Positions 5,206 to 37,374 of a stretch of DNA of 64,000 nucleotides are shown here, in pieces. A program made the translations under genes and the position numbers. How positions within the stretch are numbered: the stretch's first letter is position 1; each line of letters begins with the position of its first letter. The stretch comes from Alitta virens (Eukaryota > Annelida > Polychaeta > Phyllodocida > Nereididae): positions 45,362,247-45,426,246 of the forward strand of contig OW028576.1 of assembly GCA_932294295.1 (NCBI GenBank). Direction: 5' to 3'. The notes beneath the pieces are model-generated. The model made no database searches and was not told where the DNA came from. It worked only from the letters and a program-made list of their open reading frames with translations.

Positions 5206-22991
<17,786 letters not shown>

Positions 22992-23278
22992 GTTGCTGAT
23001 GCCCACTTTAGCGACACCTAGCGGAATTGGAGGAAGTGGTGCGTTGGAGCTCGCCTCGATAAACATTTCTTTTAAGTGCTAAATCGGCTATATGGAAGTT
23101 AAAATGATCAAAATTGACAGATTTTGAGTTGTGGATACTACTAAAAATATCGTTTTGGAAAAGTTTCACCCATTTATTTCGGACTGAAGGCCAGTGAGTC
23201 AGGCTGCTCAGCAGCTCAAACCAGCCGTTGGATCATGACGCCACCTGTCGTTTTCGCCTTGGTTACGGCACACCTTAG

Positions 23279-23325
23279 CCAATCACAGCCAATGACGGCC
23301 CTTTGTTTATAAACATTGCCACGTG
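23279..23325 (+). promoter_or_regulatory. Possible promoter: two CCAAT boxes, TATA-like box, E-box
   Basis: CCAAT occurs at 23279 and 23289, TTTATAAA at about 23305 and CACGTG at 23320. They lie upstream of the LINE-A ORF1 ATG (23348) and about 290 bp upstream, in the other direction, of the Ig-gene ATG. The elements could be the LINE 5' promoter or a shared host promoter. Motif-based only. Confidence 0.3.
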
Positions 23326-23347
23326 CACGTCATCCTTGATTTCAAGC

Positions 23348-25020
23348 ATGGCTGAGAGACCAATGAGAAAAATCAAGACCCAAATTTTATTTATTCACAC
23401 AAACATAACAAATCACATCAAGTCATCAAATTATCTTCAGTAAAGGCTGACAGTTCGCTTTTAATCCCTTTGGATGACTTTCCTACAGTTTTATTTACCC
23501 CTTCACCCTCAAGCAGTCATCAAAATACCCCATCCCCTTCACCTTTTGAGTGTCATCAAGTTACCCCTCCACCTCAATTGAGTCCTGAATATGTGCAAAA
23601 TGACACTTATGGCTCAATCATCATCGGTTCTACCATACCCCTCTCTCTTACCCCAAGTCCAAGTTCTTCAATTATTCACACTTTGATCACCCCCAGTATG
23701 CTGCATGTCCGTCCGTCTCTTAAATCAGAATTACAAGAAAAAACCAGACTTTTGATTCTTGCCAACCAAGAAATTTCTGCCCTGAAGCTATCTTTAGCAG
23801 AGGTTAAAAGAGACCTTTTAAGCAAAGAATTGCTGAGTGAATTTATTGTATCTGAGTCTGATGCTTCAATTACCACAGACACTATTACTAACAACGATAA
23901 TTGTAATAGTAATTTACAACTGTTCCGAGCAGGTGGTAAACTACATTTATTATCAAACTTTGCCAAGTCACCCTTCATGCTTCACGGATTTCGCTATGTG
24001 ACTGCAGAGCATGCCTATCAGCATCAAAAGGCATTATTTCACAAGGTTCCTCAAATTGCTAATAACATTTTGAAATGTAAATATGGTGCTCAAGCCAAAA
24101 TTGCAGCAAAAAACATTGTCACTTCAACGCAATGGCAAACTGTCAAAGTTGACAAAATGCATGAAATACTAAAATGTAAACTTTACCATTGCCGTAAATT
24201 TGCTGAAACACTTGTCAACACAAATGAAGCCATTCTCATTCATAATGTTGAGGCAGATGCCTTTTGGGGTTGCGGAGAGAATGGTCTTGGTTTCAACAAG
24301 TTAGGTTTACTGTTGGAAAGGTTAAGAGTTGAGGCTGTTGAACTGGCAAATCAGGAGCATGTGGTTGTTAGTAGTCGCAAATCAAAAGATGAGTCATCTG
24401 AGTTACAGATAGAAGAAAATGTATTTTCAAATGAAAGTCCTGTTTCAGGCACTAAGTCGACATCAATCAGAAGTCAAGGAAAACCAACTCTTGTTGTTGT
24501 TTCTGATTCAATGTTAAGAAATGTACATCGTTATCTTGTAGATAGAACCAATAACTATGTTGCATGCTTTCCTGGGGCAGATATACAAACTATTGCTGAC
24601 AAGGCTGCACAGTTGTGCCAGCAGCGTAAAGTTGACTATCTTGTATTACATGCCGGTACAAACAACATTGAAAGTGAAGACTTCTCCACTGTACAATGGA
24701 AGTTTCGTTCAGCTATCAACTTGATTAGATGGAGTTCCCCCAACACAATAATTTTGTTGTCTGGTATTGTTCATCGTCTGGATAAATCGTACTTGAACTC
24801 CCGGGTTGATGCTGTAAACAATTTCATTCTGAAATTAGAAAATGATAAAGTATTTTTTATTAATCACAACAGCACTATTCGTAATCTGCATAGAATTGTT
24901 ACAACAGATGGCCTGCATCTGCGTTTATCAGGATTACGTTTAGTAGCTCAAAACATCAATAATACCTTATTAGGTACACCTTATTATCAAGACTCAGTAA
25001 AGAACCAGTCTTTTACATAA
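23348..25020 (+). CDS. LINE-A ORF1: NADAR (YbiA-like) domain plus SGNH esterase-like domain
   Basis: The open frame runs 23356-25020. It lacks an ATG near its start, but ATGGCTGAG at 23348 lies one frame away, so a small frameshift after MAE is likely. Numbering from codon 23470: residues 1-80 are Pro/Ser-rich, 85-125 could be a short coiled coil, and 149-287 match NADAR. The NADAR features are LSNFAKSPF, then TAEHAYQHQKAL (Glu180) and DAFWGCGENGLGFNKLG (Trp266), both corresponding to conserved active-site positions of YbiA. Residues 338-500 match SGNH hydrolases: VVSDSML (block I), LVLHAGTNN (block III) and TTDGLHLRLSG with Asp480 and His483 (block V). SGNH-type ORF1s are known in several LINE clades; a NADAR fusion is unusual. 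NADAR enzymes cleave N-glycosidic bonds of ADP-ribose-type or riboflavin-intermediate substrates, so a nucleotide-related function is inferred. Confidence 0.85.
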
Positions 25021-25028
25021 CTCAGTCC

Positions 25029-25190
25029 ATGGGGTCAGAATGTGATGAGCTCTCTGACAGATCTGCCTGTCAGCCCCATGGACTCATTGATACAAAAGTA
25101 GATAGCAGTATTACTGATCCTTTAAGTACATTTATAGATCAAGCTGATCACATTTATTCTCAGCTAAGGTTAGATACATTAAACTTATTA
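25029..25190 (+). CDS. LINE-A ORF2, 5' part (before element E)
   Basis: ATG at 25029, 8 nt after the ORF1 stop, opens 54 codons ending in RLDTLNLL. The last codons (TTA TTA) join exactly to TCT ATA AAT at 33649, which continues the endonuclease start (SINVCGLRSR). The short gap between ORF1 and ORF2 suggests reinitiation or stop-restart translation. Confidence 0.8.
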
Positions 25191-25284
25191 GGCCCCATTT
25201 AACCTCATAATTCCCGCAACTCCAATTATTCCCGTAACTCCCAACAATTCCTACCAATTCCTGGAAGTCCCTGATAATTCCCAT

Positions 25285-25640
25285 ATTTCCTAATAATTCT
25301 CAATAAGTCCTCGTGGTTCCCATAATTCCCAATAAGTCCTCGTGGTTCCCATAATTTTCAATAAGTCCTCGTGGTTCCCATAATTCCCAATAAGTCCTCT
25401 TGATTCCCATAATTTCCAATAAGTCCTCGTGGTTCCCATAATTCCCAATAAGTCCTCTTGGTTCCCATAATTCCCAATAAGTCCTCGTGGTTCCCATAAT
25501 TCCCGATAAGTCCTCGTGGTTCCAATATTTCCCGATAAGTCCTCGTGGTTCCCATATTTCCCAATAAGTCCTCATGGTTTCCATAATTCCCAATAAGTCC
25601 TCGTGGTTCCCATATTGCACAATAAGTCCTCGTGGTTAGG
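25285..25640. repeat. 29-bp tandem array (left subterminal array of element E)
   Basis: About eleven copies of a 29-bp unit with core AATAAGTCCTCGTGGTTCCC and a variable ATAATTCCC part. Units abut without spacers. Long minus-strand frames across it are repeats, not genes. Confidence 0.9.
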
Positions 25641-26140
25641 ACTGGTTCCTATAGGTCCCTGTTAATACTGATGATGCCCATAATACCTAATAAATCTAGA
25701 CCATTCATTAACTCCATCCAATTCTTAATAAGTACCATAATCATTGCATAATTCCTAATACAATCATATCATCGTTGTAACTCCTCACAAGTTTTAATTT
25801 TTCCTATAGTCCTGTCAATTTCCATTTATATATATATATAGTAATTAGGCAGATTCACTGAAATATATATTGCAGCAGTTATTTAAGTATTTGAAGAATT
25901 AATTAAATTAAACATAGATTTGATATAAAATAACGTTTATCTCTTAATTTCCAGTAGTATTGACATAGAGATCTTTCAGACTCTGGAAAGGACATCCAGC
26001 TGGGCAAATACAGACTCAATGGCTTTATGAATTCTGCCAGCTCATGATCACTTTTATGAGTCTTAATTCCAGCTAATGATCACTTTAATTTTTTGTGACT
26101 GCTTTTGACTGCAATAACTTCATAAACTATACCTTTAACC

Positions 26141-26535
26141 AATAGCAATCATAATAGCTCAAGCTGGCACTACTTATAACCAAACTCTTGCAAGATATCT
26201 TGAAAAAGAGCACCATAATGTTATCAATGAGGTAGAAACCTTTGTATTACTGGAGTGTGCTTCCACCAAGCCGTGTTGGTCCCTGGGGTTCTTCGCCCAA
26301 AGGGTTGTCAACCTTGCCACAAAGAAGCAAGAAATTCCTATGATGAACATTGAATGGATACCCCCCCCCCCCCAAAAAAAAAATAAGACTACAAGAAGGA
26401 ATGTACAATTTTATGAACTATATTCAGAATGTCCTCAGGAAGAATTATGTCACTGTTGATATTGTACAGCCAGCAAGTGAAGAAGATAATGCTGATATTC
26501 AAGAACTAGAATTTCAAAGGTACATGTATTTCTGA
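26141..26535 (+). pseudogene. Coding-like fragment of unknown family inside element E
   Basis: A frame from 26141 to about 26386 reads GTTYNQTLARYLEKEHHNVI, then ETFVLLECASTKPCWSLGFF and AQRVVNLATKKQEIPMMNIE. After a C-run and A-run it continues in another frame as MYNFMNYIQNVLRKNYVTVD up to a possible donor AAAG|GTACATG. The composition looks like real protein (Cys/Trp/aromatic content, no repeats) broken by homopolymer slippage. It was not recognised. It may be a remnant of element E's own transposase gene or a captured exon. Confidence 0.35.
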
Positions 26536-26636
26536 TCACTTTAATCTTGACAAAATTTTCTTGACTAGACATAGCTGTGAAAAGTCTTTATTTTGCTTGA
26601 AAATATTAGTTTGGGGTTTAGTGCAGTATAGCGGAC

Positions 26637-26760
26637 CCAAATTTATGCCCATATTTGGCGGCCATTAAAAATGTTATTTTATCAAATATTTCACAAGTTT
26701 CTAGCACAATTAAAATAACATTTGGTGTAGATAAGCTACTAAAAGGATTTATTTAGTTGA
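26637..26760 (+). repeat. Partial copy of the MITE at 39601
   Basis: GTTTAGTGCAGTATAGCGGA, then TTTATGCCCATATTTGGC and ATAACATTTGGTGTAGAT, match 39603-39720 in order. The right end is missing here. Confidence 0.75.
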
Positions 26761-28445
26761 ACCCCAAGATCGGGCATGTCATCTACTTTTTCGAAATTCA
26801 GTTTGTGCATCTTGTAGGTTTATAGCTTTTTGTTCTTCCTGGCATAAGTGACTTACATGGGGAAGCATTTGGTGGCATTAAATAACATTTTTTATGTGCT
26901 GGACCATTGGCGGTGTTGATCCAGTTTTCCTGTAACACTTGATGGTTCTGCATAGAGTTTCCTACTTCATGGTATGTTAGGCATTCATCTGTGAGTAGGG
27001 TATTGGTGGTACCCTAAGCTTCTAGTCAGCGATGTCATTGGTGTACGCCAAAAACTTGGTACTTATTGGGGCTCCTGATGCCACTGGCACTTCATTCAGA
27101 ATAAGTCACTCCACCCACTACTACCTGTTGTTGGCGATTGCTTTTGTAATATGACTTGCTACATGACTTGGATAAACACATGGAAAAGCATGGTTTTCAT
27201 CTCATGATAAGTAGTCTTGGACTTGCTCTGTACATTACATCAAAGTGCAATTTGTGGTTGGTAGACATGATACTATTATATAAAGCAGCTAAAATGCAAC
27301 TTTTTAATGCATTTATTCGAAAATGCTGGTGTGAATGCAAAATGCTGAATGTCCAACACCGAGGGGTTTCTGGTTCAGGTATAGCTTACTTAGGTAATAT
27401 ATGTTATAGAGTAGAAAACACCTTTGTGGAACAGTACTTTTAAAAACATGTGTTCAATTTACATTCCAAGAAATATTCAGTTGATAAGATACCTATTTGG
27501 AGTGATAGGTTTCAGCATAAGGAGCTTCGTCTGTATCACACTGACTTCTTCAGCTTGTGTCATTGGATAAAGTTCAGGATGTGAAATACCTCATTGTGAG
27601 GTTTTTTAACTGCCTTGTTGTATCTTATTGTGTTGTATAGTGCATATATTATGCATTGTGAAGATGCCAAAGAACTAGTTGCCAAGAATATAAAAGTGGT
27701 GTATTGTGTAACTCAAAATTGATGTAAACTTTAATTCACTTGTAAAGTAAAAAATTGCAATTGATGAGTCATTGTTGATACATAGAACTATATTTTGTGG
27801 AGGTTTAAGCTCCCTTGATGACTCATACAGACATTCATGGCAATGGATAATCCTGTATTCACTGAAGCTTGTCATTGAGGACAAAGTTCAGCTACAGTGA
27901 CACCACTTGCCTTCTAGTGATAGAAGACTCCTACCTTATGAGTCATCATGGGATAGAAAAGCTGTAATAGGACAAATGGGAGTGTGACTCATCAATTCTG
28001 TTTTTAGGAGACTAACAGACTTAAGCTTTGCAACTTCTTGTTGCCTGTTCAGGGACTATTTATTTTCAATGTAGGCCTATATAAACAAACTTACTAATCA
28101 GTACTCATATAATTTTGTACTAGTCAAGTTATTATTATTGTAATAACATTATGTATTGACACATTGTTAAAAAATACCAGAAGGAATGATAAATGTGCTG
28201 CTGACATAATTTGCAAATTTGAACGGTACTTACTGAATGATGTGACAATAAATAATCATATTTTTGTATTAAAATAATATTTATGTACTATCAAGTGAAA
28301 ATAATTCTGAATCCACTTACCTGTATTGCATTTGAGGCTATACTGTTTCAGATTATAATAAATTTTGATCAACAAAATCTTTTCTTGTTTTATTCCAAAT
28401 CGATTTTGACAAAATAGTGATGTCGCAAATAAATAATGTCTTCAG
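26761..28445. other. Element E interior, no gene recognised
   Basis: Several short frames but no recognised domain. Confidence 0.35.
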
Positions 28446-29040
28446 TTAAGGCCCCCTCACACATAGCCGGAGTAGAGACCGGAGCGTCCTGGAGGACAAC
28501 TCCAGCATACTCCGGGTAATGCCGTGTAGACATCATGTGCATTTCCGGCATTGTCCGGGGCTATCCGGGAACACCGTGGGACTCCGGCAAAAAAATCAAA
28601 CGTTTAATTTTTCATGCCGGAGGTACCAGAGTAATTTATCCGTGTTGCTCCGTGTAGACTCCCAGTAGACTCCGCCGATCTCCGGGAATCTCACACGGGT
28701 GAACACGTGGCAACACGGAGTCAACAAAGAGTGAACAAGGAGAGCAGGTTACGGGTCAATTGCTTGACACCGGTAACCCCGGTAGGTACACGGTGTCACA
28801 CTAAGTCAATACGGAGAGGCCGGAGTGAACAAGGTGTCAACACGATGTCAAATAGACTGACACAGAGTGAGTACGGATGTTATCGTATATATAGCACCGC
28901 CCGCCATCTTGGGAGAAGCATCAATCCGGTGCACGCTGTTCATCATTGATCATCGAATTAATTGCATTATCGCTCACTTCTTCTGGATTGCTGAACTCTA
29001 CCAAAGCCTTGGTACTACTGCCGTTGCTTTGAATAACCAC

Positions 29041-30361
29041 CATGCTACCTAGGAGAGGAAAAGGGAGGGCTACCAAGAAGACTGTCGTGCAAGAGGAAGT
29101 TGGACCTGCTGTTGGAGAAGATGCAGGAAGTAATACCTCTACAGTTTCAAGACCGCAAAGGCATGCCTGATTTATCTGGGCCAGTTGTACCTGCTGCTGC
29201 TGAGGTACCTGCTACAACTGCAGCTGCTGCAGCTGCTGCAGCTCCACCACCACCTACAGCAAAAGCGAAAAGGCACAAAAAAGAAACCCTGAACCTGACA
29301 GAAGACCAAGAACAAGATGTGGCTGACTGGTACCGTGCCCAGGAGATGCTCTACAACCGGCGGCTTTCACAATACAAGCGGATAGACATTAAATCGCGAA
29401 TAATCGACCAGAAGGCCAAAGAGCTGTCGTGCACATCCCAGCAGCTGAAGACGTGGACGACTCCATGTGGACATCAGTGGGGAAGTTTACTGATCCAAGC
29501 AAGAAGCCTTCTGGTGGGGCTGCCAGAATCCTTACAGACCGGGATAACTGGATAATGGAAAATTTAGGGTATCTGGAGAGGCACATCAAGAGGGTTGACG
29601 CTGGGAAATGGAAGAGAAGGTGGGCAGCTTTCCCACAGTTTATCGGCAAAAAGTGCATCAACCAGCAACAGAAGTACCACTGAGGATGATGACACTTCTG
29701 ATGCGGAGGTCATTGTGGATACTTCGGATGATGGTGGCAGAGATTCGGATACTAGCAGGTCCAAGGGTGGGCCTTACAAGGGCAGCAGCAGCAGCAGGAA
29801 GGGGGCCCCTCCTCCAACCAAGAAGAAGTCAAGACGCCATCACGAGCCTCGTCATCATCATGACTGTGATGCATCCAGCCTTGCAGGTAGTGGAGGTGGA
29901 TATGCTACACAAGCTGTCACTCAAGTAAGTATACCGCTTCAGTTGTCGTGATAATCAGGAGAATGTAATTGTAATCTTGTAGTGTAAATTTGTAATTGTA
30001 ATCTTGCAGTTTAAAGTTGTAGTTTTTCCATAGTAGCAAGTGGTAGCTTTGTTTCTTGGCACTTCCAGTGTCCACTGTATGGTGATGTGTCTTTTTCATT
30101 ACATTGTCAATAATGCACATGCTGTTGCAGTTGCCATGTGACTTACTCTAATGTTCTGTTCTTTCCTATTTCCCACTGATCGAAAAGGCCACCGATCTCC
30201 AGCGGGATATCCAGACCAAGATGAGTCAGCCGACTGACTCAGCCAGCTTGTCGTACATGGTTTTCACGGACATGATATACCACGAGGTCATACAAATGGA
30301 CACGGACACTTGGTCGGATTACCAGGCACAAGCGTTGCAGCACCTCATGCAATTCAAGTAG
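29041..30361 (+). pseudogene. Harbinger accessory DNA-binding protein (MADF/Myb-SANT-like)
   Basis: ATG at 29041 gives MLPRRGKGRATKKTVVQEE. The coding continues in three frames: an Ala/Pro-rich linker, then LTEDQEQDVADWYRAQEMLY, KRIDIKSRIIDQKAKELSC and QQLKTW (MADF-like helices). MWTSVGKF and ARILTDRDNWIMENLGYLER follow, and then the acidic STTEDDDTSDAEVIVDTSDD. Exon 1 ends at 29924 (CAA|GTAAGT). A second exon, 30188-30361, gives ATDLQRDIQTKMSQPT and ends QALQHLMQFK with a TAG. Frameshifts near 29160, 29460 and 29600 indicate decay (or sequence error). In Harbinger systems this protein brings the transposase to the nucleus and TIRs. Confidence 0.8.
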
Positions 30362-30382
30362 GAGTATCGTCGAAAGCACCAG

Positions 30383-30445
30383 TTGCAGCAGCAACAGCAG
30401 CAGCAACAGCAACTGCAACAGCAACAGCAGTATCATCCCTATGTG
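30383..30445 (+). repeat. (CAG)n-like trinucleotide run
   Basis: CAGCAACAGCAG-type repeats just downstream of the MADF gene stop. Encodes poly-Gln or poly-Ala in open frames but lies outside the gene model. Confidence 0.8.
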
Positions 30446-31051
30446 CCTCATGTCCCTCCGCAACAGCAGTTCGTCCTACTACAGGCACTTCGACCGCCCC
30501 TGTTGGGCAGATGTTCCCTCATCATTCTTTCAGCCCTGCTGCCCAGATGTTTGCTACTGCATCCGGCCCTTCGCCCCAAGCACACATGTCGTCTGCCTGC
30601 ACCGACCCCCACTCCTGAGATATCTTCGACGATCATCAGTCAGGCATGGTTGACTGCAGGTCCTTCGCACGGTCATCCCACTTGATTGCAGCACGCCTCA
30701 GGATGCTTCTCTCACCAGCTACTTGCTGAACACCAGTGTGGGGGGGATAGTTGGTGGTGATGACCATAACTCCTCCTTTTCGGTGCCCACGCCTCCAACT
30801 ACCACAACAGAGTAATCTTCACCTGAAAACGAACAATGAATTTTTATTAAAAGCAAGTTTAAACATTTAAAGTTACAGGTTTTTGTAGTTTTAACTTTTA
30901 TTTTGACATGTTAAGTGTATTGCATACGTTTGCATGACAATAATTAAATGCTGTGTCATTAAATGTTGTGTACTTTTTTGCACTTGTGTGCTGCAGATGT
31001 CTGAGGTTTCGTAATAATTAAATGTTCAAACTTACATCATTCGTGTTGTTT

Positions 31052-32411
31052 TCAAATCTTGTCTTGTTGCCATGGTACACTCCCAGCTTCTGAGTTGACA
31101 TAGTTGACCAAGTATTGCTGCATTTCCTTGCCTGCTCTGTTGGTGATGCCTCTGTACACATCTCCCATGTCTGGTAGATTGGCATTCTCCCTCCATACAC
31201 CTGGGATGATCGCATGGATGTCTGCATTTTCCTGGTCCACAGCATTCACTTGAGCAGTTGGATACTTCAGCCTCAGTAGGTTGTACAGCACACAGCAAGC
31301 AAGAGTTATGGTGCACACTCTGTCAGGACTTTGAGGCATTGTTGTGAGGAGACACCTGAACCTGGCAGCCAAAAGTCCAAAAGGCATTCTCTACCACCCG
31401 TCTAGCTCTAGAACGTCTGTAGTTGAAGATTCGGTCTTCCATCATCATGTTCCTGTGAGGCAGAGGCTTCATCATCCAAGTCTGCAGTCCAAAGGCATCA
31501 TCCCCAACTATGAAGTAAGGCACTGGCTGGTCATCATTCGGCAGGTTGTCTGGTTCAGGTAATCCAATGTTCCCACTTTCTAGCGCTTCCTTCAATTCTG
31601 TCTGACTAAACACTCCAGCATCTGAGCCTGATCCACTGGCACCAATGTCAACATAGAGGAACTTGTATTCAGCATCAACTACAGCCAGTAGGACAATAGA
31701 GAAAAATCCCTTGTAGTTGTAGAACAGGGATCCGGACTTCCTAGGACATCTGATGGCAACGTGCTTGCCATCAATGGCACTGACACAGTGGGGGAAGTTC
31801 CATCTGTTGTAGAATCCATTGGCAACTTCTTTCCAGGCTTCTGGGGTTACAGGACAACACATCACTTCTGCTAAGTACTCGTCTATGATGGCCTGGCAGA
31901 CTTCGATGACAAGGATAGAAATGGTATTGAAGGCTACCCTGAATCCATACTGCAGAGACATGTAGCTGTTGCCCGTACCCAGGTAGCGCAAGGTAATAGC
32001 CAGTTTCAGTCCAGGTTCAAGGGCCCTCCTCCGAAAGGTATCCTGCTTTGTAAACCTAGGTCCCACTCTTGCCAGAACTTCATGAAATAAGTCAGGCTCC
32101 ATCCTCATGAAATTCTTGAAGCCACCCACATCTTCTGCAGTCAATTCAGCCATCAGTTTTTCATACTGCCCATAAAGAGGTCTTCTTAGAAGCCAAGGTC
32201 GCACCCACATTCACCTTATTCTTCTTCTTCGGGCAGCACCAGCATTTTGTAAGAAGTCATCTTCATCAGTTGTTGATGCGGCCCTCTCTGCAGCGTCTTG
32301 CAGTTTCTGTTCTTCTTGCAGAAGTATATCATTTGCAGCAGTAAGTAGCTGGACTTGCATGTCCAGGTACTTCACATCCAATTCCACCTTGTCGTAGTGT
32401 GATAAAGACAT
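31052..32411 (-). pseudogene. PIF/Harbinger (HARBI1-like) DDE transposase
   Basis: On the minus strand ATG at 32411 (MSLSHYDKVELDVKYL) reads to a TGA at 32211-32213, probably a mutated Trp, and resumes at once with MWVRPWLLRRPLYGQYEKLM, the conserved Harbinger start. The catalytic triad is visible: CVSAIDGKHVAI (Asp), ASGSGSDAGVF (Asp) and RRVVENAF (Glu). One extra T at about 31380 shifts the frame; the C-terminal part continues as GLLAARFRCLLTTMPQSPDR to LVNYVNSEAG and a stop at 31052. Apart from these two lesions it has full family length, so loss of function is recent. Confidence 0.92.
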
Positions 32412-33189
32412 AATAATTATCCATTCTTGTGTAGTAGCAGCAACACCTTTGCAGTATGGTAGTCCGAAGTGGAATGATGGCCAGTGGAACTGGTTCCGGG
32501 AGAAAACAGGTTAACTCGGCAGTAAGATCATGTACAGATCGTGTATATCCGTGAAGGCCCCATGTAACATCCGGTTCACTCCGCACTCATCCGGGACACC
32601 CATGTTACTTCCGGCAACAGCCATGGCTCGTTCCTTGGTGCACCGGACACCTCCGTGTACCGCCGGTGTTTCAACCGTACATATCCGTGTAGCGACTGTA
32701 TACATCCGTGTAATAGCCGTGTTGCTCCTTGTTGCCAACTTCTTGTTATTGTGTCCACACCGCAAAATTTTTCTTTCATTGACATTTCCAACTTTTTCGC
32801 CTGGACCGCCCCGGATTGAAGAAATTTCATTCCGGGACGCTCCGGGGTCTAATCCGGCTATGTTTGAAGGGGCCTCTAGCTAATGCCATTGGCTTGTATG
32901 CAGCCTGGCAACTTAACATCTCGGGATCAATACCCTACATGCTTTATACTTTATGAGAAAGTCTATATCACAAGGTTAGTGACCCCTGTGTACTAACTGG
33001 TAATTGGGTGTTCATGCCAGGCTTGCTAAATCTGAGCCAACAATTGGTTGGTTGTATTAAACGTGTAAGCTATATTATTGGCAAATTCACGTTATTGTGT
33101 TGAAGATGTATCTGGAATAGAATTAGCTAATTCCCATAAAACCCACAAGTCAGACTATCCCAAGCTCTAGCTCCTTCTAGGCCTGTGGT

Positions 33190-33440
33190 GTACCACAATT
33201 ACCAATAAGCCACTGTAAGTCCCATAATTCCCGTAAGTCCTGAATAATTCCACAATTTCCTAGAAGCCCTTCTGGGTCCCCATAATTCCCGTAAGTCATG
33301 AATAATTCTGCAATTCTCTAGAAGCCCTTCTGGGTCTTCTTAATTCCCGTAAGTCCTGAATAATTCTGCAATTCCCTAGAAGCCCTTCTACGTCCCCATA
33401 ATTCCAGTATGTCCTCAATAATTCCACCAAGTCCTAAATA
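33190..33440. repeat. 60-bp tandem array (right subterminal array of element E)
   Basis: Three to four copies of a unit of about 60 bp starting near CATAATTCCCGTAAGTCC and containing TAGAAGCCCTTCTGGG. It shares the CATAATTCCC word with the left array but has a different period. Confidence 0.8.
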
Positions 33441-33648
33441 ATCTCTGTTAAATCAATAAGTCCCTATGATGCCCAATAAATCCTGCAATTCCTTTACATC
33501 CTTAATAACTCCCCTATCTCCATATGGGTCCCATGAGGTCCTTCAATTCCTATCTAATTCCAGCATTTCCTGTAAGTCCTCCAAGTCCTGCAATTCCCAA
33601 ATGGGAGTCCCGCATGGGAATTATGGGGTTAAATGGGGCCTCTTATTA

Positions 33649-36600
33649 TCTATAAATGTTTGTGGATTACGATCCAGACTTGTTAACCCCGACTTTATAG
33701 AAACCATTTGTAAATATGACATTATTTGTGTTCAAGAAACCAAAACTGATGATGCAGATTTAGAATTTCTTAAAAATACTTTTGAAAAAATTAATTTTTG
33801 TATCTTACTCAAAAATAGATTACATTTGTCTAACCATAGATGTGGAGGTTTGGCCTTTTTAGTAAAGAAATCTTTAAAGGAGCATGTCAAGTATGTTGAT
33901 AGAAATTATAGAAATGCACAATGGTTAATAGTGAGTAAAGGTTTAACAAAATACAAGTATGACTTGGTCTTGGGTAATATTTATATACCTCCTGAGAATT
34001 CAAAATATGCCCGTCAGGATGAGTTTGATGATCTCTTACAAGAGTTATTGAATTATGCATCTAATGACTTTTATATTAGCTTGTGTGGAGACTTTAATGC
34101 TCATTCTAGGGGTCTTATTGACTATTGTGAATTAGATGACATCATTTTTAATGAGTGTAACATTGACGAGTTTCTTAGGGATGATTTTAGTGACATCTCA
34201 ACATTAATGAAATGTGGTTTTGAATTAACAATGTTAAATTCAGATAGGTTGCCTCCATGTGGTTATGGAAATCAATTAGTTGAATTATGCAAAGCCTCTT
34301 CATTACTCATTTTAAATGGTAGAGTTGGTAGAGACCGTTACCTTGGGAAACCAACAACTAAGTTTGAAACAGTAATAGACTATTTTATGACATCTAGTAC
34401 ATTGTTTCCATTAGTAAAATCATTTGAAATAGAAGATTTTGATCCCATTTTTTCAGATGCTCATTCTAAATTAGCATGTAGTTTCATGATTGGTGATTGT
34501 ACTCACCCTCATGCTTCATCTTTAGTGCAGCCTATTTCATCTAATAACGGTGTGGATGAGTTTATGCCTGTGGAATGGGTTGAGGATAAAAAGTTAAATT
34601 TTGTTCAAAAGGTGAACTCAAATTCTATTCAACATTTGGTAGACTATAGTCAAGGAATAGATTTTGATGTTAATGTAGCAACAAATATGTTAAAACAAGT
34701 TTTCATTTATGCTGCAACAGAGTGTTTTTCTGTGGTTAATAAGAATAAGAGGAAAAATAAGTCAAAGAAAAATTGTAATACTAAAGAGTGGTTTGATTCT
34801 GAGTGTAAATTAGCTAGGAAAGCATATCATTCAGCAAAGCATGTAAATAATATTAGAAAAACTTCTGAGAGTCACGAATTTTTGATCAAAAAGAGTAAAG
34901 AGTATAAGAAGGTGCTGCATAAAGCACAGAGTACATTCAAAAAGAATCTAGAAACTGAGTTAAGACAAATGAAATCAAAGAAGCCTAAAGATTACTTTAG
35001 GTTACTGAACAGTAAGAAAAGATCTGATTGTAAGGTAGACTTTAATACTATGTTCCTTTATATGAAAGATCTAATGAACAGTGATATTTCTTATCAAGAT
35101 TCTGATGTTTCTGATGTCTGTGATTTTAATGACACTCTAATGGAGAGTGAGGAATGCAGAAACATTCTGAATTCTAGTATAACTACAGAAGAAATATTGA
35201 ACATGGTGAAAAAGTTGAAGCTGTCAAAAGCTAAGGGTATCGATCTGATAAAGAATGAATGCATTAAATATACCCTTAACTCTATGATGCCAGTATATCT
35301 CAAAATCTTTAACAGAATACTTGATATTGGTGTTATTCCTGAGGATTGGTTGATAGGCATAATATTGCCATTATACAAGAATAAAGGTGATCCTGAAGAT
35401 CCTGATAATTATCGGGGTATTACTCTCTTAAGTTGTCTAAGTAAGCTTTTTACTGGTATACTTAATGCTAGATTAGTTAAATTTTCAGAGGCTGTTGATT
35501 TGATAAATGAAAATCAGGCTGGTTTTCGTCAAGGTTATAGCACAGTAGATCACATTTATCTGCTCAAAAGTATTATAGATTTATATATTTCTAACAAGAA
35601 AAAACTGTATTGTGCTTTCATTGATTATCGCAAGGCCTTTGATTCTGTATGGCATTCGGGTTTATGGTTAAAGCTCCTAAAGAGTAATATTTCTGGTAAG
35701 ATATTGAAAGTTATTCAATGTATGTACAAGAATATTAAATCCTGTGTGTCTATTGACATTAATAGATCTGATTATTTTATCAGTAATATTGGAGTTAGAC
35801 AGGGAGAAAACTTATCCCCTTTTCTTTTTTCCCTATATGTCAATGATTTAGAAGATTTTTTATTAACTAAAAATTGTAAATGCCTGAGTTTTTCCAGTCC
35901 TGAGTTAAACATGTACTTGAATCTATTTGTATTGCTTTATGCTGATGACACAGTTATTCTTGCTGACTCTAGTATCAATCTGCAATTAGCACTTGACAAA
36001 TTGTCAGAGTTTTGCACATTATGGAAATTATCAGTTAATGAAAAGAAAACAAAGATTTGTGTATTTTCAAAGAGGAAGTTTAAGTCAAATGACTTGCGTT
36101 TTATTTACAATGGGTCGCAATTAGAAATTGTAGACAACTTTCAGTATCTGGGTGTTGTTTTCAAGTTTAATGGTAAATTTGACCTTTGTAAAAAGAGGCT
36201 TTATACACAAGGTAAAAAAGCATTGTTTAGCGTGTTAAAAAATTGTCGAAAATATGATTTACCAATTGATCTACAATTAGATCTATTTGATAAAATGGTT
36301 TTGCCAATTCTTACATACGGTTGTGAAGTTTGGGGGTTGGAAAAAATTGATATAATTGAGAAACTTCATTTGAAATTCTGTAAATTTATCTTACATGTGA
36401 AGAGTAGCACACCTAATGTTATGGTGTATGGTGAGTTGGGTAGATATCCACTGTTTATAGATGTTTATTCTAGAATGGTTAAATTTTGGATGAAGATGCT
36501 TATTGGTAGTGACAAAAAACTTTCTTACAAGATGTATAATGTGTGTAGATTGCTAGATGAGTATTTGCCTTGGTTGTCGAAGATTAAAGAAATTTTATAT

Positions 36601-37110
36601 TCTTGCGGTTTATATGCAATCTGGGATTATAATATTCCAGTTAATCCACAATGGCTGTCTAAAACTGTAAAGTTGAAACTAAAGGATATCTACCTCTCTG
36701 AGTGGAGACAATCTGTTGATTTGTCAAGCAAATGCTATCTATACAGAATTTATAAGAATGATATTAAACTAGAAGACTATTTAGTAACTTTACCATCCAG
36801 TTTAAGAATAAACTTGTGTAAATTTAGAACAGTTAATCATAATCTTCCAGTCGAAACTGGAAGATATAGGAATATCCCTAGGCATTTAAGATACTGTACT
36901 ATTTGCAATGAAAATGTTTTGTGTGATGAATTTCACATTATTTTTGTATGTAAGGAATTACAATCGTATAGACGTAAATACTTGCCAGCTTCTTTGTGTA
37001 GTCATGGTAATATATCTGTATTGCGATTGCATGACATCATCAATTGCTCTGGCAATAAACTAGTTAACCTAGCTTTATTTGCCAAATATTGTTTAGGTAA
37101 ATTCACTTAG
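33649..37110 (+). CDS. LINE-A ORF2, main part: APE endonuclease, reverse transcriptase, C-terminal Cys/His motif
   Basis: With the 54 codons before element E, the full ORF2 is 1207 residues. The endonuclease blocks are SINVCGLRSRL, IICVQETKT, LGNIYIPPEN, LCGDFNAHSRG and FSDAHSKLAC (a variant of the usual S-D-H). The reverse transcriptase blocks are KLSKAKGIDLI, DNYRGITLLSCLSKLF, QAGFRQGYST, AFIDYRKAFDSVWH, GVRQGENLSPFLFSLYVNDL and the catalytic LLYADDTVILAD. The tail holds YCTICNEN and DEFHIIFVC, a Cys/His motif common in these LINEs. The frame is open to a TAG at 37110 with no internal damage apart from element E, so the insertion is the inactivating event. Confidence 0.93.
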   Translation, partial: SINVCGLRSRLVNPDFIETICKYDIICVQETKTDDADLEFLKNTFEKINFCILLKNRLHLSNHRCGGLAFLVKKSLKEHVKYVDRNYRNAQWLIVSKGLTKYKYDLVLGNIYIPPENSKYARQDEFDDLLQELLNYASNDFYISLCGDFNAHSRGLIDYCELDDIIFNECNIDEFLRDDFSDISTLMKCGFELTMLNSDRLPPCGYGNQLVELCKASSLLILNGRVGRDRYLGKPTTKFETVIDYFMTSSTLFPLVKSFEIEDFDPIFSDAHSKLACSFMIGDCTHPHASSLVQPISSNNGVDEFMPVEWVEDKKLNFVQKVNSNSIQHLVDYSQGIDFDVNVATNMLKQVFIYAATECFSVVNKNKRKNKSKKNCNTKEWFDSECKLARKAYHSAKHVNNIRKTSESHEFLIKKSKEYKKVLHKAQSTFKKNLETELRQMKSKKPKDYFRLLNSKKRSDCKVDFNTMFLYMKDLMNSDISYQDSDVSDVCDFNDTLMESEECRNILNSSITTEEILNMVKKLKLSKAKGIDLIKNECIKYTLNSMMPVYLKIFNRILDIGVIPEDWLIGIILPLYKNKGDPEDPDNYRGITLLSCLSKLFTGILNARLVKFSEAVDLINENQAGFRQGYSTVDHIYLLKSIIDLYISNKKKLYCAFIDYRKAFDSVWHSGLWLKLLKSNISGKILKVIQCMYKNIKSCVSIDINRSDYFISNIGVRQGENLSPFLFSLYVNDLEDFLLTKNCKCLSFSSPELNMYLNLFVLLYADDTVILADSSINLQLALDKLSEFCTLWKLSVNEKKTKICVFSKRKFKSNDLRFIYNGSQLEIVDNFQYLGVVFKFNGKFDLCKKRLYTQGKKALFSVLKNCRKYDLPIDLQLDLFDKMVLPILTYGCEVWGLEKIDIIEKLHLKFCKFILHVKSSTPNVMVYGELGRYPLFIDVYSRMVKFWMKMLIGSDKKLSYKMYNVCRLLDEYLPWLSKIKEILYSCGLYAIWDYNIPVNPQWLSKTVKLKLKDIYLSEWRQSVDLSSKCYLYRIYKNDIKLEDYLVTLPSSLRINLCKFRTVNHNLPVETGRYRNIPRHLRYCTICNENVLCDEFHIIFVCKELQSYRRKYLPASLCSHGNISVLRLHDIINCSGNKLVNLALFAKYCLGKFT

Positions 37111-37311
37111 TTGGCGATATAGAAGCCATGTTATTTTGCATAATTCTTTGAAAGTAACATAGGTGGTGCTAGTGTCGTTGGGACGACACCTAGCGGCAAT
37201 ATTCTGAAGTTGTGTGAATCCTTTATGTTTATATTTATTATATTGTTAATATTAATTATATATATGTATATTGTTGTTATTTCTCATACCCAGACTGGGT
37301 CTAGAAAATAA

Positions 37312-37374
37312 ACATTTGTCATTTGTCATTTGTCATTTGTCAGAAATAAACATTTGTCATTTGTCATTTGCTAC
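37312..37374 (+). repeat. LINE-A 3' tail, (CATTTGT)n
   Basis: Two blocks each begin AATAAACATTTGTCATTTGT and continue in 7-bp CATTTGT units. Short tandem 3' tails replacing poly(A) are seen in several LINE clades. AATAAA may also act as a polyadenylation signal. Confidence 0.75.

Follow-up and report, generated by a model that had tools for sequence, protein, structure and literature searches.

A NADAR domain joined to an SGNH esterase-like domain in ORF1 of LINEs of Alitta virens

ORF1 of a LINE in the window, the 64,000-nucleotide stretch of Alitta virens DNA that was analysed, holds a NADAR domain together with an SGNH esterase-like domain, and belongs to an APE-type LINE lineage in which the ORF1 protein (ORF1p) has the order coiled coil-NADAR-SGNH. 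NADAR was the best-conserved part of ORF1 in this SGNH-type lineage. The LINE copy, assigned to family A, was laid out in the window as follows.

23020..37354, plus strand: whole LINE copy of family A, delimited by blastn against the copies on C9 (L031) and C11 (L032), with a DNA transposon interrupting it between about 25191 and 33641
23356..25020, plus strand: ORF1 frame, 554 amino acids from stop to stop
23719..23838, plus strand: predicted coiled-coil helix of ORF1p (model helix spanning residues 19-58 in the piece that was modelled)
23914..24330, plus strand: NADAR domain
24331..24489, plus strand: poorly conserved linker
24490..24966, plus strand: SGNH esterase-like domain, carrying Ser in SDS, Gly in PGA, Asn in GTNN and Asp/His in DGLH
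25029..25190, plus strand: 5' piece of ORF2, starting 8 nt past the ORF1 stop
25191..33641, no strand assigned: DNA transposon insertion, its terminal inverted repeats 26 nt long (96%), with a flanking duplication of about 7 nt, CTTATTA
33642..37110, plus strand: main part of ORF2 with endonuclease and reverse transcriptase, its frame open to 37110

The sequence-only reading had placed both domains in one open frame, and this was borne out: the motifs TAEHAYQHQK, DAFWGCG, SDS, GTNN and DGLH were all present in ORF1p. The profile check gave a divided result, in which NADAR (PF08719) scored 76.6 bits against a Pfam cut-off of 35.1, whereas SGNH scored 23.5 bits, under its cut-off of 32.9. The SGNH part was identified instead by its match to the solved LINE ORF1 esterase 4c1b (E 1.9e-12), and the SGNH fold was also matched; for the window NADAR, the YbiA fold was found. 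A misreading of NADAR or SGNH was ruled out by the Pfam NADAR score, the 4c1b match and the fold match. Structure modelling predicted a long helix ahead of these domains, with NADAR sitting between the helix and SGNH in family A. Confidence for the modelled coiled coil was pLDDT 78-88 at residues 21-50 and lower at the ends; near the second active-site motif of NADAR, the model's confidence dropped to 50-59.

The frame itself had been taken as 516 residues, which had to be corrected to the 554-residue frame listed above. The window ORF1 misses 10 nt after 23377 relative to L032, and the ATG at 23348 is therefore out of frame in this copy; the first Met of the window frame lies about 115 residues in. 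The matching ATG was in frame in the C9 and C11 copies. The claim that ORF2 begins 8 nt beyond the stop of ORF1 held for the ATG at 25029, but only about 54 codons follow before the DNA transposon, an insertion of 8.45 kb, and the frame resumes at 33642-37110. This window ORF2 matched Exo_endo_phos (E 2.3e-8) and RVT_1 (E 6.8e-35). Its ORF2 with APE-like endonuclease and reverse transcriptase behind ORF1, and its several dispersed copies, mark family A as an APE-type LINE; it was without LTRs, as judged from the copy ends only.

By blastn, the window LINE was 99.1% identical to L031 and L032 over 23018/23020-25190 and 99.5-99.6% over 33642-37339/37354. The three family A copies began at the same base, and their 3' tails were formed by TCATTTG repeats, so the last bases of the LINE are approximate; no target-site duplication was evident by eye at the three copies. 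Over 5.87 kb the C9 and C11 copies shared 99.9% identity (99.1-99.6% with the window), and both had an uninterrupted ORF1 (583-aa stop-to-stop frame) and ORF2 (1229-aa frame), with endonuclease and reverse transcriptase confirmed in the C11 copy. The 99.9% identity between copies suggests that family A was recently active. A fourth copy on C10 was 98.7-98.9% identical to L032 and had the NADAR and SGNH blocks, with its ORF1 frame broken between residues 151 and 156. The NADAR-bearing near-identical copies were those in the window and on C9, C11 and C10; a C4 piece (93%) matched ORF1 residues 470-554 only.

The ORF1 frame had at least 81 matches in its own genome, with 78 of 534 candidates scored, and these included further families. 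Family B is represented on C5 and C4, with a broken ORF2 in the copy examined. Family C has many near-identical copies with a 549-aa ORF1 and a 1263-aa ORF2, family D a 641-aa ORF1 and a broken ORF2 in the copy examined, and family E a 562-aa ORF1 and a 1353-aa ORF2. ORF2 identity was 28.6% between families A and C (1208 residues) and 51.9% between C and E (1168 residues), and NADAR was retained across SGNH-type LINEs that have diverged to about 28% ORF2 identity. A search beyond this genome gave nine proteins matching the family profile, with 8000 candidates scored; the whole-ORF1 query gave one outside relative and the alignment query nine, probably because of low-complexity words in the former. 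In seven of them (P0002-P0008), NADAR was accompanied by SGNH block I at the least, P0002 being cut short. P0009 had NADAR and, by eye, a zinc-knuckle-like stretch, and its own search of the genome gave 84 matches, nearly all to the NADAR part; P0010 had SGNH without NADAR. In the SGNH part of P0006 (509-621), a weak match to the OSK domain was seen below the cut-off (PF17182, E 0.0012). A scan of viral contigs with YbiA found none. The sequence-only reading had asked whether other copies lack the NADAR part; all of the near-identical copies extending that far (4/4) have it, and so do the other families. A single accidental fusion was ruled out by the further copies, the diverged families and the outside relatives.

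Among 11 distinct ORF1s (L032, as near-identical, left out), mean pairwise identity was 52% for NADAR, 39% for SGNH, 18% for the linker and 20% for the N part. Invariant columns numbered 36 of 139, 9 of 159, 1 of 53 and 0 of 83, respectively, counts that are depressed at the ends by truncated rows. Families were compared by dN only, because dS was mostly saturated. Four between-family pairs gave dN of 0.29-0.59 for NADAR, 0.29-0.99 for SGNH and 0.72-1.71 for the linker, and the NADAR value was lower than those of the linker and SGNH in three of the four; the exception was L017-L036, with an SGNH dN of 0.288 and a NADAR dN of 0.319. Within families there were too few changes for dN/dS to be informative, its values lying both below and above 1.

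The active-site residues of the P. nicotianae NADAR are E43, K50, E125, D130 and W133 (PMC11543638). In the E. coli C7 NADAR, K95 (equivalent to K50) is essential for efficient hydrolysis, and E88A (at the E43 equivalent) has only a minor effect in vitro (PMC11543638). For SGNH-type LINEs, 32 of 36 locus rows were readable at these positions, several rows representing one copy. The first Glu (E43 position) was kept in 29 of the 32 and replaced by Lys in three, all from one family B copy; it was also kept in 24/24 readable RRM-type rows. The Lys at the K50 position was kept in 26/32 rows, with Met in four and Leu in two. Asp and Trp (D130 and W133 positions) were kept in 32/32. At the E125 position, taken from an ungapped stretch of the YbiA alignment, His was found in all 32 readable rows and in 7/7 outside relatives. 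Families A and C had the complete Glu/Lys pair, seven residues apart; of the family B copies, that on C5 had both residues and that on C4 had Lys for Glu. Met replaced Lys in families D and E and in P0003-P0006 (4/7 outside relatives), and Leu replaced it in L006 and L010. L034, L036 and P0003-P0006 had Met for Lys, yet their NADAR domains were well conserved. The putative active site of family A thus keeps Glu, Lys, Asp and Trp, with His in place of E125. Family A also had the full SGNH set of Ser, Gly, Asn and Asp/His.

NADAR was also found in other ORF1 layouts of the same genome. All of the 30 best-scoring NADAR loci of the genome had LINE sequence within 1.5 kb. L1-like ORF1s (coiled coil-RRM-CTD) ending in NADAR were common (L038, L040, L045, L050, L053, L059 and L066), and one ORF1 (L071:274-2094) had the order PHD-coiled coil-SGNH-NADAR-CCHC, in which NADAR and SGNH are reversed. 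The SGNH fusion, the L1-like and the PHD-type ORF1s make three NADAR layouts that share one genome. In L045 (2279-3334), a cysteine-rich PHD-like stretch, seen by eye, opens the frame that holds the ORF2 endonuclease.

When bacterial and phage NADARs were included in the tree, the SGNH-type LINE NADARs formed one group (13 rows). A branch with support 98/96 placed the SGNH type, the PHD type and P0009 on one side with YbiA and phage NADARs, and the RRM-type NADARs on the other with 8bau and bacterial NADARs. This topology favours at least two putative captures of NADAR by LINEs. When all LINE NADARs were constrained to one clade, the AU p was 0.124 in the tree with phage rows, which held 6/80 bacterial loci, 5/59 phage records and, from P0009-P0050, only P0009, P0017, P0021, P0027 and P0031. 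It was 0.42 in the other tree, built without P0040, P0041 and P0042 and with 8/80 bacterial loci. A single LINE clade was thus rejected in neither tree. Rows of fewer than 95 residues or at least 85% identical to a kept row were dropped (118 reduced to 56). An initial AU rejection of an SGNH plus RRM clade was set aside, as many unlabelled environmental rows resembled fragments of RRM-type LINEs. One capture followed by shuffling is possible, because ORF1 modules are known to swap among LINE lineages of the Jockey superfamily (PMC4120745).

The comparison with known systems bears on what is new here. Several Tx1 LINE ORF1s of Crassostrea gigas appear to hold a YbiA-family NADAR, and an Ectocarpus Gypsy lineage carries NADAR in Pol (PMC12477816). 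The oyster elements (Repbase) resemble family A in having NADAR in a LINE ORF1, and P0009 may be of their NADAR kind; the words "esterase" and "SGNH" are absent from the main text of PMC12477816, and the comparison is by description only. The Ectocarpus lineage is likewise a retroelement with a captured YbiA-family NADAR, but it is an LTR element, with the domain in Pol and not in ORF1 (PMC12477816). The esterase (type IV) ORF1p of ZfL2-1, the source of 4c1b, shares with family A a coiled coil followed by SGNH, and its SGNH residues align with those of family A, whereas families C, D and E have lost the block III Asn (GDIE) and no NADAR is described for ZfL2-1 in the abstract and sections 12-13 of PMC3905857. 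With YbiA and the oomycete and phage NADARs (2b3w, 8bau), family A has in common the fold and the active-site Glu, Lys, Asp and Trp; it differs in having His where the catalytic Glu, E125, would stand. According to PMC11543638, His also occupies this position in phage NADARs, but by eye a Glu was seen near that position in five phage sequences. The earlier supposition that the fusion is undescribed stood in part: the open-access papers listed by literature searches included no report of a NADAR-SGNH LINE, but NADAR in LINE ORF1s had already been noted in one sentence of PMC12477816, and among the papers listed this alone was seen to put NADAR into a transposon. As far as searchable, four things are new: NADAR fused to SGNH, the occurrence of this fusion across SGNH-type LINE families, the coexistence of three NADAR-bearing ORF1 layouts in a single genome and, among LINEs, an active site with the His variant.

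The roles of LINE ORF1p beyond RNA packaging are poorly known. We propose, with a probability of roughly one half, that the NADAR-bearing ORF1p clears ADP-ribose off guanines in the RNA or cDNA of the element. The coiled coil would multimerise ORF1p and collect the RNA of the element in an RNP; the SGNH domain would have lipids or membranes as its site of action, as has been suggested for ZfL2-1; and the NADAR domain would bind ADP-ribose and hydrolyse it from guanine bases of element RNA or of the first cDNA strand. Such a mark, set by putative host or invader ADP-ribosyltransferases, would stand in the way of reverse transcription or of translation. NADAR in the L1-like and PHD-type ORF1s of the genome would be explained by this pressure too. 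Since a NADAR activity would here be joined to an RNA-packaging protein, an ORF1p that keeps RNA or cDNA guanines unmodified is the simplest proposal. The NADAR fold, the Glu and Lys of family A, the strongest conservation within ORF1, the retention of NADAR across SGNH-type LINEs with strongly diverged ORF2 and the three layouts support it, and the His for E125, the loss of Lys (to Met or Leu) in some families and the fall in model confidence around the second active-site motif count against it.

NADARs that have been assayed remove ADP-ribose from guanosine in RNA (PMC11833690), and guanosine-ADP-ribose is hydrolysed by assayed NADARs in both RNA and DNA (PMC11833690, PMC11543638); the macrodomain and ARH enzymes assayed were inactive on RNA guanosine-ADP-ribose (PMC11833690). 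Animals have pierisin-type guanine-modifying enzymes (PMC11543638, PMC11125620), and the physiological roles of animal NADARs have been called unclear (PMC11125620). Invertebrate RNA viruses, including annelid/bivalve picornaviruses, carry NADAR, and viral Macro/NADAR domains are proposed to counter host ADP-ribosylation (PMC9503650). The sequence-only reading had suggested that the element removes ADP-ribose marks left on its nucleic acid by a PARP-type defence. Removal from nucleic acid is plausible, but reversal of PARP-type marks at RNA ends is disfavoured, because the E. coli C7 NADAR showed no activity towards ADP-ribose at phosphate ends (PMC11833690). The other suggestion of that reading, processing of NAD-linked 5' ends, finds no mention in the cited text.

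The main rival to guanine-ADP-ribose removal, which we consider rather unlikely, is a binding role, in which NADAR would not be an enzyme and would tether ORF1p-RNA to ADP-ribosylated nucleic acid or protein, for example at nicked target DNA, or would supply an RNA contact otherwise missing in esterase-type ORF1ps. It takes this rank because the esterase ORF1ps of RepBase are described as having no structural RNA-binding domain (PMC3905857, Schneider et al.); the replacement of Lys by Met or Leu in several families and of the catalytic Glu by His would also fit catalysis lost with binding retained. Set against it is the retention of the first Glu in both SGNH-type and RRM-type rows, and NADAR is not a mere stand-in for an RNA-binding domain, because L1-like ORF1s with RRM-CTD carry it too. 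Equally doubtful is an action on small ADP-ribose- or NAD-derived molecules rather than marked nucleic acid, with host signals, riboflavin-type N-glycosides and NAD-capped RNA ends as candidates. Many phage NADARs are argued to target mainly soluble, small ADP-ribose derivatives, which supports this reading and counts against our proposal (PMC9503650); the building of NADAR into ORF1p, taken as an RNA-packaging protein, would favour an RNP substrate. That NADAR is a passenger, an accidental fusion without function in the element, would suit the broken window copy (10 nt missing near the ORF1 start, ORF2 insertion), but it is largely refuted by conservation across diverged families and outside relatives and by other LINE groups keeping NADAR at other positions, and is very improbable.

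A wider reading, which we put forward only tentatively, is that LINEs of this annelid took up NADAR at least twice, from different NADAR subfamilies, and placed it in ORF1 layouts unrelated to one another (ahead of SGNH, behind SGNH and behind RRM-CTD) as a counter-defence against host guanine-ADP-ribosylation of retroelement RNA or cDNA. To our knowledge, such a host guanine-ADP-ribosylating system has not yet been described in annelids. The presence of NADAR in quite different LINE proteins hints at help against something in the host cell. The genome allows a direct test of whether nucleic-acid ADP-ribosylation restricts animal retroelements and LINEs carry their own reversal enzyme, which would parallel what some RNA viruses and phages may carry.

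The surroundings of the LINE contained further mobile sequences. Inside the insertion, 45-nt inverted repeats (87%) at 28449-32875 surround a minus-strand DDE_Tnp_4 frame (PF13359, E 3.3e-19), an element which we take to be Harbinger-like, and also enclose a frame with a sub-threshold MADF/Myb-like match. Because these repeats enclose both frames within the insertion, a Harbinger-like element appears to be nested in another DNA transposon. A tandem repeat rich in AATTCCC/AATAAGTCCTCGTGGTTCCCAT, seen by eye at 25216-25660, adjoins the insertion at its left end. A minus-strand frame at 21952-22608, a short way upstream of the LINE, matched the hAT C-terminal dimerisation region (PF05699, E 2.2e-9).
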